Shown here piece by piece: positions 23,061 to 64,000 of a stretch of 64,000 nt of DNA (positions are counted from its first letter, which is position 1; each line of letters opens with the position of its first letter). Under the pieces are notes generated by a model. That model was not told the origin of the DNA and did not search any database. It was given only the letters and a program-made list of their open reading frames with translations. Position numbers and translations under genes: made by a program. The DNA lies in assembly GCA_943788515.1 (NCBI GenBank), contig CALSQM010000003.1:1-64000 (forward strand). Direction: 5' to 3'. This DNA comes from an uncultured SAR86 cluster bacterium. GTDB lineage: Bacteria; Pseudomonadota; Gammaproteobacteria; Magnimaribacterales; D2472.

Positions 23061-23409
23061 TGGTGGAGGCGGCGGGAATTGAACCCGCGTCCGCTAATCC
23101 TTCAGCCTAACTTCTACATGCATAGCTCACCCAATTGGCTTTTTAACTTTCGTGACCCGAGGAGCAGGGTACAAAAGCGAGCTTGATTAGTTTTAACCAA
23201 ACTGTGTCCAAGCAACACAGCTTGGCTAGACTATGATATTTGCCGATACTTCAAACCATAGTCAATTCTGGTATCGGTTAGCATTAAGCTGCTAAAGCGT
23301 AGTTGTCGTTATTTGCAACTAAATTTTTTGTAGTATGTTTTACAAGAATTACCACAATCTTGGCATGCGCTTCGGAGTCCAGTAGAAACGTCGAACCCTG
23401 TTCGCCCCC
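23061..23409 (-). ncRNA. ssrA: tmRNA (ssrA)
   Basis: Transfer-messenger RNA that rescues stalled ribosomes with SmpB. The 5' end (GGGGGCG, 23409-23403) pairs with the 3' acceptor strand CGCCUCC before A-CCA (encoded CCA at 23061-23063). The T arm reads GGGTTCAATTCCC. The tag frame at 23316-23284 is GCA AAT AAC GAC AAC TAC GCT TTA GCA GCT TAA, giving ANNDNYALAA. At 349 nt it is one-piece, not circularly permuted. smpB lies just upstream on the same strand, the classic arrangement. Confidence 0.97.
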
Positions 23410-31870: not shown

Positions 31871-32818
31871 ATGAGTATAGTTTCAGTAAAAGACCTGTTA
31901 CACGCAGGCGTTCATTTCGGTCATCAAAAAAGGTTTTGGAATCCAAAGATGGAGCAATATATTTTTGATACAAGAAAACAAATTAGTATTATCAATCTTG
32001 ACCTTACCCAAGAACATCTTAAGTGCTGCTGCCTCTAAAGTAGAGGATGTATGCTCAAAAGGTAACAAAGTTCTTTTTGTTGGTACAAAAAGATCTGCAA
32101 GCAAAACAATCAAAGACGAGGCATCCGCATTAGGATTACCTTATGTTAATAAAAGATGGTTAGGTGGAACTCTAACTAACTGGAAAACAATTAGAGGTTC
32201 AATAAGAAGACTTCAGGATATAGAGGAAATGATTTCTTCTGGAAGAATTGAAAAGCTTATTAAGAAAGAAGCTGTTGAAATGCAAAAAGAATATACAAAG
32301 CTAGAAGCAAGTGTTGGTGGTATAAAAGACATGAAAGGTCTTCCGGATGCTATTTTTGTAATCGATGTGAAGTATGAAAAAATAGCAGTTCTAGAAGCAA
32401 AAAAAATGGGAATACCTGTTATAGCGTTAGTTGACACTAACTCAGATCCTGATGGAATCGATATGGTAATACCAGGAAATGATGATGCTATAAGATCAAT
32501 TAGACTAATTACTAAAATTATTGCAGATTCTTGTGCTAGAGGTTTAGAGTCATCTAAAGGGTACTCACCTATTTCTGATAAAGAATCACCAGTTATTCAG
32601 ACTATAAAAAAAGAAGCACCTGTTGTTGAGGCTGTAGCTGAAGAAGCACCTGTTGTTGAGGCTGTAGCTGAAGAAGCTGTAGTTGAAGAAGCACCTGTTG
32701 TTGAGGCTGTAGCTGAAGAAGCTTAGTTGAAGAAGCACCTGTTGTTGAGGCTGAAGTTGAAGAAGCACCTGTTGTTGAAGAAGTTGAAAATACTGAAAAG
32801 AAAGAGGAAGTTAAATAA
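31871..32818 (+). CDS. rpsB: 30S ribosomal protein S2 with acidic repeat tail, two frameshifts
   Basis: Small-subunit protein at the mRNA exit. It starts [20 protein letters not shown] and [18 protein letters not shown]; a small deletion near 31998 moves the frame to [44 protein letters not shown] and [20 protein letters not shown]. After the normal S2 end comes a Glu/Val/Ala/Pro repeat. The frame breaks again at 32722, where one G is missing: AAGAAGCTGTAGTTG at 32671 recurs as AAGAAGCTTAGTTG at 32716. The restored end is [11 protein letters not shown] at 32818. Reconstructed length is about 316 residues against 241 in E. coli. Confidence 0.93.
32611..32777 (+). repeat. 30-bp and 45-bp tandem repeat in the rpsB 3' end
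   Basis: A 30-base unit beginning AAGAAGCACCTGTTGTTG starts at 32611, 32641, 32686, 32730 (two changes) and, in part, 32760. A 15-base spacer unit (AAGAAGCTGTAGTTG) follows the copies at 32641 and 32686, creating a 45-base higher-order repeat. It encodes [10 protein letters not shown] modules of the S2 tail. Confidence 0.9.
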
Positions 32819-59980: not shown

Positions 59981-61138
59981 ATGCATCATAGTTCTCAAGG
60001 CATGTATAAAAAAAATATTCTTTCAAAAAGTTTGAATATGGAGGTACTAAAAACTTCTGGCAGTATTCTTATGATCCTTTTCCTTCTTGTTGTAGGATCT
60101 AGGTTTGTTGGTTATTTTGAAAAAGCTGCTGAGGGTTTAATGGATCCAAGCATCATTTTTAGTGTTATTTTTTTAAGATTTCCTGACTTTATTACTGTAC
60201 TAATACCCTTATCTTTTTTTCTAGGAATATTAATCAGTATTAGCAGGCTCTATGCAGAGCGAGAAATATATGGCTATATATCTGTGGGCCTTTCGCAATT
60301 AGACTTAGTTAAATTCCTGGCGCCTCAAGCATTTATATATTTTTCTATAACTTTAATGCTGAGTCTTTATGTAGCTCCCTATACTAAAGCCTTATCGCAA
60401 GAAATTGTGGTGATAGATTCCTTTGAAGAGCAAATCGAATCAATGAAGCCAGATAAAATATACTCTTTTGAAGATGGAAGGGCATTTATTTATGCAAAAG
60501 GTATTAATGCTAATGTACTAGAAGGTGTAAGGATGTTTAGAGCTGATAATAATGGCTCAAACCTAATAATGGCAGAACAACTTAGTGTTAATAAAGGTAA
60601 TAAACAACTCGAATTAGATTTTATGAATGGTGTGTTTTATAAAGGAATCTTTTCTGATCAAAGGCAAGTAACCTCATCTTTTGAGAAGTTTATCTCTCCA
60701 ATTGAGAAAGATGTCGAAAGAGTTTCAGGATTAAGTATGTCTAAAATTTTTGATTACTCTGCTGAATCAGAAAAAGCTAATCTTCAATGGAATATTTCAA
60801 TTCCAGCTACCTTGATTATCTTATTATTTTTAGGGGTATATATGGGTTCAGTTAAACCTAGGCAGGGAAGATTTTCAGTAATTCTTCCTGGTATGCTGAT
60901 ATATATTGCCTACTTAAGCCTGTTAATCTTGGGAAGAGAGTCATTATCTTCAAATCCAACCTCAGGAATTGGATTATGGTGGATTCACTTAATTTTTGGG
61001 CTCTTTGCAATGCTATATATTTTTAAAGATAACCTTCAAATAGCAAACTCAAGAATACTTATCATCAGAGAACATCAATATTTTAGATATATGGTTGGAA
61101 CTGCGTTGTTATTCATTTTTATTTGGATTATCTTTTAA
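59981..61138 (+). CDS. lptF: LPS export permease LptF
   Basis: Inner-membrane subunit of LptB2FG that extracts lipopolysaccharide. Up to 385 residues: three N-terminal membrane helices (ILMILFLLVVGSRFVGYF, then FRFPDF-like LRFPDFITVLIPLSFFLGIL), a periplasmic jellyroll (about 130-270) and three C-terminal helices. LYAEREIYGYISVGLS is a family loop. An in-frame ATG at 60002 (MYKKN) or 60041 may be the true start. Divergent from pepA and coupled to lptG. Confidence 0.93.
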   Translation: MHHSSQGMYKKNILSKSLNMEVLKTSGSILMILFLLVVGSRFVGYFEKAAEGLMDPSIIFSVIFLRFPDFITVLIPLSFFLGILISISRLYAEREIYGYISVGLSQLDLVKFLAPQAFIYFSITLMLSLYVAPYTKALSQEIVVIDSFEEQIESMKPDKIYSFEDGRAFIYAKGINANVLEGVRMFRADNNGSNLIMAEQLSVNKGNKQLELDFMNGVFYKGIFSDQRQVTSSFEKFISPIEKDVERVSGLSMSKIFDYSAESEKANLQWNISIPATLIILLFLGVYMGSVKPRQGRFSVILPGMLIYIAYLSLLILGRESLSSNPTSGIGLWWIHLIFGLFAMLYIFKDNLQIANSRILIIREHQYFRYMVGTALLFIFIWIIF

Positions 61139-62193
61139 TGAAAATATTTAATAAGTACTTGGTAAAAAGGTCATTTCTAATCTCAATATTTATTTTCATT
61201 ATTTTTGCTATCCTTGATACAGCATTCAATTTTATTTCTGAATTAGAAAATCTATCAATCGATTACACTTTTTTCTATGCATTAAAGCATGCGTTTATTT
61301 CCATGCCACACAGATCTATTGAATTTCTTGAAGGTGCTTGCCTTCTGGGCTTTATGGTAGCTCTTGGAATCTCTCATCAAGAGGGGAACCTTAATGTTCT
61401 TCGATCTAATGGACTATCCCCAATAAAAATAATTTTAATAAGCTCATTGGGTTCTATGATTGTAGTGCTTTCAATTTTAGCTATGGATGAAATTGCTTTC
61501 AGAGAGATGCACATAAAGTCTAAGGTAGAAAAAGATTCTCTATTGGGCCAGGCTACTCAAGAGCAGTCAAAATTTCAATGGATAAAGCAAAACGATTACC
61601 TATTAGGTTATACGAATGTTATAGGTAACTTAATTCTTAACCCAAGACTTATAAAAGTTGATTCAGATATAGAGAAAGTAAATTATTTTAAATCAGCTAA
61701 ATCGGCAAAAATTATAGAAAATGGAATAACTTTTGATCAAGGCTTATTAGTTGAAGGAAATCCGTCGTCTAACGAAATTGCTAATTATGAAATTTTTTCA
61801 TTCCCATTAGTTGCCACTATTCCTTTTTCAGATATAGATAGCTTAAGTTTGGATAGGATTGCTTCTTACAGATCTTTGATGATTGAGAGCAGTCTCGATG
61901 AAGATGTTTTATTTAAAGCCCATTTAGACAAATCTTTTTATAAAAAAATATTTTATCCATTTTCAGTGTTAGCAATAATGATATTTTTTGGATCTTTTAT
62001 TTTTGGGTCATTAAGAGATTCCTCTCCTGGATCTAGAATAGTTTTTGCTGTTTTTGGAGGATTTTTATATAGAATTTTTCAAGATCTTTCTATAAGTATT
62101 TCAATTTCTTATAGTTTACCAATTCTAATTGGTGTGATCGCCCCTGCATCAATTTTATTAATATTAAGTATTTATTCCTATAAACGAATTTAG
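61138..62193 (+). CDS. lptG: LPS export permease LptG
   Basis: Partner of LptF in LPS transport. I start at the ATG at 61138, which overlaps the lptF stop (TAATG); it gives 351 residues (MKIFNKYLVKRSFLISIFIF). Six membrane helices flank a periplasmic domain; NLNVLRSNGLSPIKIILIS is the cytosolic coupling loop. FGSFIFGSLRDSSPGSRIVF near the C-terminus resembles the LptG block around residue 300. The frame could extend 15 bases upstream inside lptF. Confidence 0.93.
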   Translation: MKIFNKYLVKRSFLISIFIFIIFAILDTAFNFISELENLSIDYTFFYALKHAFISMPHRSIEFLEGACLLGFMVALGISHQEGNLNVLRSNGLSPIKIILISSLGSMIVVLSILAMDEIAFREMHIKSKVEKDSLLGQATQEQSKFQWIKQNDYLLGYTNVIGNLILNPRLIKVDSDIEKVNYFKSAKSAKIIENGITFDQGLLVEGNPSSNEIANYEIFSFPLVATIPFSDIDSLSLDRIASYRSLMIESSLDEDVLFKAHLDKSFYKKIFYPFSVLAIMIFFGSFIFGSLRDSSPGSRIVFAVFGGFLYRIFQDLSISISISYSLPILIGVIAPASILLILSIYSYKRI

Positions 62194-62678
62194 ATTAATC
62201 TCAGGCCTGTATTCGACAAGTTATCACTAATAGATCTCCCCTCTGCTGAAAAATATATCTGTAACAATGGAATGCCAACTGCACCAACTACTGCACCAAC
62301 TACTGCACCAACTACTGCACCAACTACTGCACCAACTACTGCACCAACTACTGCACCTAACATTACAATTACTAAGTTCGAAAGAAATCTAATTGTAGCT
62401 TGTTTAATACTGGGATTCTTGCCATCAAAGCTATATATTTCTATTTTCCATATCGCCATACCAAGAGTTTTATTACCATGAATCCAAAAATAACAGTAGA
62501 AAGCCCATGTACTTATGAATACTAATGAAGGGCCAACCCACTTAGCCTCAATAATGCCCCCATTAATCCATACCGCTATTGATCCAACAGTAAACCATAT
62601 GCCACACAGAAGAAATAAATCATAAATCGTTGCTGCCAATCTCCTTATTGGAGAGACCTTGTATGTTTTTAATTTCAT
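62190..62678 (-). CDS. RDD-family membrane protein with glycine-zipper repeat
   Basis: About 162 residues from the ATG at 62678 (MKLKTYKVSPIRRLAATIYD); an ATG at 62717 would add 13 residues but abuts the next gene's start. RDD traits: SPIRRLAATIYDLFLLCGIW, GNKTLGMAIWKIEIYSFDGK and GRSISDNLSNTGLRLI, with about four membrane segments. The third segment contains LGAVV then GAVVGAVVGAVVGAVVGAVV, encoded by a 12-bp tandem repeat, so its length is probably variable. RDD proteins include some Na+/H+ antiporters, but most have no known function. It overlaps lptG by four bases at the 3' ends. Confidence 0.85.
   Translation of the reverse strand: MKLKTYKVSPIRRLAATIYDLFLLCGIWFTVGSIAVWINGGIIEAKWVGPSLVFISTWAFYCYFWIHGNKTLGMAIWKIEIYSFDGKNPSIKQATIRFLSNLVIVMLGAVVGAVVGAVVGAVVGAVVGAVVGAVGIPLLQIYFSAEGRSISDNLSNTGLRLI
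62275..62356. repeat. 12-bp minisatellite, six perfect copies
   Basis: GCACCAACTACT occurs six times without a mismatch at 62281-62352, flanked by partial copies (CCAACT before, GCACC after). On the minus strand it encodes the four-residue unit GAVV in the RDD protein. The period is a multiple of three, so copy-number slippage keeps the frame. Confidence 0.97.
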
Positions 62679-62718
62679 TTTGTTATAGTACTTAAAACCA
62701 TTAAAATAATAAATCATT

Positions 62719-64000
62719 ATGAGTACATCAATTACAAGGTCATCAGAATTTTTAGGTCATCCAAAAGGTCTTTTTGTATGTTTTGCTACCGAGATGTGGG
62801 AAAGATTTTCTTACTATGGAATGAGAGCATTATTAATACTCTATCTTACAAAGCACTGGGAGTTTTCTGATGCTCAAAGTTATGTAATTTATGGCGCCTA
62901 TACATCTCTAGTCTATATAATGCCAGTTTTTGGTGGAATGCTTGCAGATAGGATACTTGGCTCAAGAAAGGCGGTTACATTTGGTGCAATACTACTAGTT
63001 TTGGGTCATACAGGAATGGCTTTTGAAAGTAATGTTCAGGTCTTTTATCTATCTTTAGCTCTTATAATCTCTGGGGTAGGGTTCCTTAAACCAAATATAT
63101 CAACAATGGTTGGTGCTCTTTATGAAGAAGGCGACCCTAGAAGGGATCCCGGATTCACAATTTTTTATATGGGTATAAATATTGGAGCATTCTCTGCCTC
63201 CTTGCTTTGTGGCTACTTAGGTGAAACTTATGGCTGGTCATATGGTTTTGGTGCAGCTGGAATAGGAATGCTAATTGGACTAATAATCTTCTTATGGGGT
63301 CAAAAATACTTAGATGGACATGCAGAGCCAACATCAGACTTTTACATGGACAAGGATAAGGATTTTAATATTACATATGAGAATTGGGCATACATTAGTG
63401 GCATATTTATGGTTTTTGCTTCTTATATGCTTATACAAAATCAAGAAATAGTTGGAAATCTTCTTGGAGGTTTTGGTGCAGTCTGTATTGCTTTTTGGTT
63501 ATTTTACTCATTGTCAAAATGTTCTTCTGAAGAAAGAGATAGGATGATTGTGGTTGGAATTTTAATATTGTTTTCATTAATTTTTTGGGCCCTTTTTGAA
63601 CAAGCAGGATCATCTTTAAATATTCTTACTGACAGAGGTGTAGATAGAACAATATTAGGTTGGGAGGTTCCAGCCTCAATGTTCCAATCTTTAAATGCAT
63701 TTTTTATATTTACTTTAGCTCCTCTCTTTGCTTTTATGTGGCTCGCTCTTGCTAAAAGAAATATAGAACCCTCAACACCACTCAAATTTGCAATTGGAAT
63801 CATGTTTGTTGGGATTGGGTTCCTTGTTCTTGTTTTTGGAATGAACAGTTCTGTCGGAGTTCAAACTGGAGTATTTTGGATAATGCTTATATATCTACTT
63901 CATACAATTGGTGAGCTTTGCTTGTCTCCTGTTGGCCTTTCTTCTGTTACCAAATTATCACCAAAGAGGATTGTTGGAATGATGATGGGTATGTGGTTTT
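62719..64000 (+). CDS. POT/PTR-family proton-dependent peptide transporter (3' end outside window)
   Basis: MFS-type di/tripeptide-proton symporter. The frame is open for 427 codons to the window end. TM1 carries the ExxERFxYY motif (ATEMWERFSYYGMRALLILY), the loop has FGGMLADRILGSRKA, and PTR2 signature 2 is seen in FTIFYMGINIGAFSASLLCG; later FWALFEQAGSSLNI matches the family. About 11 membrane helices are visible. It is divergent from the RDD gene. Substrate range cannot be read from sequence. Confidence 0.93.
   Translation, partial: MSTSITRSSEFLGHPKGLFVCFATEMWERFSYYGMRALLILYLTKHWEFSDAQSYVIYGAYTSLVYIMPVFGGMLADRILGSRKAVTFGAILLVLGHTGMAFESNVQVFYLSLALIISGVGFLKPNISTMVGALYEEGDPRRDPGFTIFYMGINIGAFSASLLCGYLGETYGWSYGFGAAGIGMLIGLIIFLWGQKYLDGHAEPTSDFYMDKDKDFNITYENWAYISGIFMVFASYMLIQNQEIVGNLLGGFGAVCIAFWLFYSLSKCSSEERDRMIVVGILILFSLIFWALFEQAGSSLNILTDRGVDRTILGWEVPASMFQSLNAFFIFTLAPLFAFMWLALAKRNIEPSTPLKFAIGIMFVGIGFLVLVFGMNSSVGVQTGVFWIMLIYLLHTIGELCLSPVGLSSVTKLSPKRIVGMMMGMWF

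Follow-up and report, generated by a model that had tools for sequence, protein, structure and literature searches.

Systems related to the array

Members of the RDD family (PF06271) have three predicted membrane segments, an R...D pair in helix 1 and an aspartate near the C-terminus. The RDD protein of Halobacillus andaensis is reported to act as a Na+(Li+,K+)/H+ antiporter, for which R124/R129 and D154 are reported to be indispensable (PMC5996927). Cation/proton antiport has been reported for this one member of the family (PMC5996927), and by analogy it is a putative activity of the SAR86 protein described here. Glycine zipper motifs (GxxxGxxxG) place a glycine at each fourth position of a membrane segment, whilst in-frame coding minisatellites (VNTRs) are made of tandem, near-identical units located in surface or linker regions. 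Searches of the literature on membrane-helix coding VNTRs and on hypervariability of lptFG found nothing.

The RDD gene and its neighbours

The RDD gene lies on the minus strand of the window (the whole 64,000-nucleotide stretch of SAR86 DNA that was analysed), within an ORF of 175 codons at 62190–62717 that remains open to 62717. The protein is probably 162 amino acids long, because the conserved start of its relatives matches the ATG at 62678, which places the gene at 62190–62678. It scores 47.8 bits against the RDD model, where the Pfam cut-off is 24.1, and it has the same three predicted membrane segments as the family, together with the helix 1 arginine and aspartate (R13, D20) and the C-terminal aspartate (D152), all of which are invariant in an alignment with 18 relatives. 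Unlike the other RDD proteins examined, it has a third membrane segment with 26 extra residues, which lie between R97 and D152; by their position, rather than by alignment, this arginine and this aspartate are the probable counterparts of R124/R129 and D154 in the Halobacillus protein.

On one side the gene is flanked by LptF, LptG and PepA and on the other by a transporter. LptG, the LPS export permease, is the convergent neighbour (61123–62193, plus strand) and its stop overlaps that of the RDD gene, whilst the divergent neighbour is a POT-family peptide transporter (62719–63999, plus strand) that runs off the window.

The 12-bp array and its reading frame

Within the RDD gene, at 62278–62357, is a 12-bp minisatellite with the unit ACTGCACCAACT on the plus strand and GGTGCAGTAGTT on the coding strand, where it encodes GAVV. 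Tandem Repeats Finder reports a period of 12 with 6.7 copies, 100% matches and no indels. A perfect period-12 array of 80 bp is much beyond chance expectation; the G+C content of the window is 34.5%. The minus-strand ORF translates around the array as ...VIVML(GAVV)6GAVGIPLLQIYF..., in which (GAVV)6GAV forms residues 108–134 of the probable 162-residue protein. The original prediction, of a perfect in-frame tandem array within an RDD protein, is borne out by the repeat search, the translation and the Pfam score; the six perfect copies that it counted are indeed perfect but number 6.7. It had also supposed that slippage would alter the helix by whole turns, which does not hold, as each unit adds four residues, or approximately 1.1 helical turn, with a 40-degree shift. 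As in other coding VNTRs the units are perfect, run head-to-tail and have a length that is a multiple of three, but their setting here is a membrane helix and not a surface or linker region.

An antisense ORF on the plus strand (62272–62481) reads MPTAPTTAPTTAP..., a peptide repeat that is also that of the TAPT protein on contig C1 (see below). It was considered as a gene and rejected, being without homologues outside the repeat, and is probably not a gene.

A young insert in one lineage

The RDD protein is found nearly everywhere in the set of sequences covered (61 relatives; the genus, with 18 genomes; and the family, with 107). The array, in contrast, is missing from all 48 of the other distinct SAR86 RDD sequences that were checked, and the RDD genes of the congeners of the window genome are without it altogether. 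The alignment opens a clean 26-residue gap in the relatives at the conserved motif L-[AG]-[IL]-P, and the spacing between two landmarks across the 49 distinct sequences is 52 residues in 46 of them, 54–55 in two and 78 in the window protein only. The net gain is 78 bp, equivalent to 6.5 units, and since this is not an integer, a one-unit duplication in a normal gene would not be sufficient on its own. Viral contigs were also scanned for the array and gave no match.

We judge the array to be a young in-frame insert of one lineage, probably with a near-neutral effect. A recent expansion had been proposed from the perfection of the copies, and the absence of the array from every other RDD sequence checked, together with the presence of perfect copies in an old and divergent gene, upholds this view.

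A diverged rdd allele and the lptF-lptG-rdd segment

The gene that carries the insert is itself unusual when compared with the nearest genome (G004, locus L071), to which the gene-by-gene identity and dS values that follow refer. DNA identity is 94–98% for PepA and 91–96% for POT but only 67–68% for RDD, whilst dS is 0.11 for PepA, 0.27 for LptF, 0.43 for LptG and 0.29 for POT but approximately 1.7 for RDD. Because synonymous divergence in RDD so exceeds the 0.11–0.43 of its neighbours, the gene fits a diverged allele that was acquired by replacement and is held under purifying selection. The RDD dN/dS is 0.14, a ratio that mostly records history predating the insert, and since the protein also keeps every residue that is invariant among the 18 relatives, apart from S5 and V27, the gene looks intact. 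In a protein tree the window allele falls outside its nearest relatives and beside another SAR86 genus, though a tree grouping it with those relatives is not rejected by the AU test (p = 0.33). Accelerated protein evolution, as an insert-driven burst, was considered as the source of the divergence and rejected, synonymous sites being equally raised.

Two further congeners diverge from the window across lptF, lptG and rdd, with PepA and POT remaining similar. The pattern suggests repeated allelic exchange or diversification at this LPS-export locus. Between congeners, DNA identity across the lptF-lptG-rdd region (window 60200–62680) is 62–80%, against mostly 86–98% in the flanking pepA and POT genes. 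Separately, a contig assigned to an uncultured Bacteroidetes MAG (L077) carries a SAR86 POT-rdd-lptG-lptF segment and is probably mis-binned.

The extended membrane segment

Hydropathy and AlphaFold place the third membrane segment of the window protein at residues ~92–145 (62244–62405, minus strand). The array lengthens its hydrophobic run from approximately 22–30 to approximately 53 residues (93–145), which far exceeds one bilayer span. In a low-confidence AlphaFold model of an array-free relative (pLDDT 55) there are three membrane helices, the third of which is continuous at 96–117. In the window protein, also modelled with low confidence, the third segment splits into two helices at 91–119 and 121–143, with a pLDDT of approximately 56–66 over the array in the monomer. 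The extended segment may form a hairpin, with the C-terminal tail switched to the other side of the membrane, or a long bent helix. Searching solved structures by sequence returned chance matches only, and a PDB fold search with the model returned no significant match.

A second array in a TAPT-repeat protein

The same genome contains a second array of equal period on contig C1 (G000:C1 ~163812–163935), which has 11 of the 12 unit bases in common with the RDD array and is read on the opposite strand and in another frame, as a TAPT repeat. It belongs to a gene at G000:C1 ~163686–164172 (L119:3688–4173, minus strand) for an exported protein with no Pfam family. This secreted, mucin-like protein has a signal-like N-terminus, TAPT and ST repeats and a Ser/Thr-rich tail, and its gene adjoins the YjbH exopolysaccharide gene (yjbH) and an SLBB/Poly_export gene. 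Hence, where the RDD array encodes a hydrophobic helix, the C1 array encodes a Thr/Pro/Ala-rich secreted peptide.

The TAPT-repeat protein is found in four congeners, and in congener G011, apparently SCGC AAA076-P13, the TAPT array is present and the RDD array absent. The exact degenerate tandem unit occurs in two of 107 SAR86 genomes, namely that of the window, in both the C1 and RDD genes, and that of a congener, in its TAPT gene; among the 107 only the window's genome has the exact tandem in RDD. When all rotations and both strands are allowed, a random 12-mer fits the unit with at most one mismatch at a rate of ~8e-5 in the window genome and 1.3e-4 in the relatives' loci, and because an 11/12 match is so rare by chance, shared descent of the two arrays appears the more likely explanation of their sequences. 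Every unit of the RDD array has ACT where those of C1 read ACG or ACA. The RDD array is therefore not copied directly from the C1 array as it now stands, and an intermediate or an independent origin is needed.

Origin of the array

The account that we favour, and hold to be somewhat more likely than not, is that a young in-frame minisatellite insert, seeded from the TAPT repeat, lies in a replaced RDD allele and is tolerated in the third helix. The allele would have arrived by homologous replacement, and the seed would have come from the TAPT minisatellite, or from an unsampled relative of it, through template switching or ectopic repair. Replication slippage in frame-keeping steps of 12 bp would then have expanded and homogenised the repeat. 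The resulting (GAVV)n could be tolerated in the third membrane helix because it is hydrophobic and contains no stops or charges, although a single-span helix would thereby become a hydrophobic run of ~50 residues, forced to bend or to form two helices. The effect of the array is most likely nearly neutral or mildly disturbing. The more specific proposal that the mucin-like TAPT minisatellite was copied antisense into a membrane-protein gene, the change of strand yielding a hydrophobic glycine-zipper helix, is put forward tentatively, at somewhat less than an even chance.

An unlikely alternative is that a seed local to the RDD gene expanded de novo and independently, with no connection to the TAPT array. 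The unit is one base away from all C1 units, and A-G codons (GCN GGN), which the relatives carry at this site, could have served as part of a seed; both points would agree with such an origin. It would, however, leave as coincidence an 11/12 match between equal-period arrays in one genome, expected at ~1e-4 per pair, and it sits poorly with a gain that is not a whole number of units.

A second alternative is that the repeats are a selected glycine zipper, driving formation of an RDD oligomer or channel, with slippage tuning the length of the helix. The (GAVV)6GAVG sequence at residues 108–135 does have GxxxGxxxG within a predicted membrane helix, with glycine at each fourth position over 7–8 steps, and both the GxxxG spacing and the location in a membrane segment of an RDD protein, here the third helix, had been correctly foreseen. 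There are also weak matches to curated glycine-zipper models, but these fall far below the cut-offs (19.6 against 28.9 bits for PF13441; 19.2 against 175 for a YiaD-type model). Moreover, and in contrast to recognised glycine zippers, the array is unconserved, being confined to one genome, and its unit is accounted for by a shared minisatellite of which it is probably the antisense reading. Geometry is no more favourable, as the 40-degree shift at each GxxxG step swings the glycine stripe around the helix over 7 steps, and 50 residues are more than one span. The simplest explanation of the sequences is that the "glycine zipper" is a minisatellite read in antisense. The zipper might yet serve a dedicated function, but a role in packing and channel formation, as initially suggested, goes unsupported when a near-identical unit encodes TAPT on the other strand, the model scores are below cut-off and the run is too long, and we regard selection for a zipper as improbable.

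That an assembler produced the copy number or the array itself is very improbable: the assembly is a draft of 18 contigs with 79% completeness, and short-read assemblers can miscount repeats, but both flanks belong to one RDD gene, in frame and in conserved gene order, the ACT-ACT form is found in no C1 unit, so that C1 reads cannot supply the array, and 80 bp is below normal read length.

Implications and other features of the window

The case illustrates how a streamlined, AT-rich marine genome can acquire a long membrane segment at once, from a minisatellite with a unit that is harmless on both strands. It also advises caution, in that a striking motif, here a glycine zipper, can arise as a side product of a DNA repeat. 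Were the copy number to vary in natural populations, the locus would offer a natural test of the extra helix length that a small membrane protein can bear.

A second coding minisatellite is present in the window at 32611–32783, with a 45-bp unit, in the C-terminal tail of an apparent ribosomal protein S2, and the S2-like ORF terminates within this array at 32726. The window also contains an ordinary tmRNA gene on the minus strand at 23061–23409.
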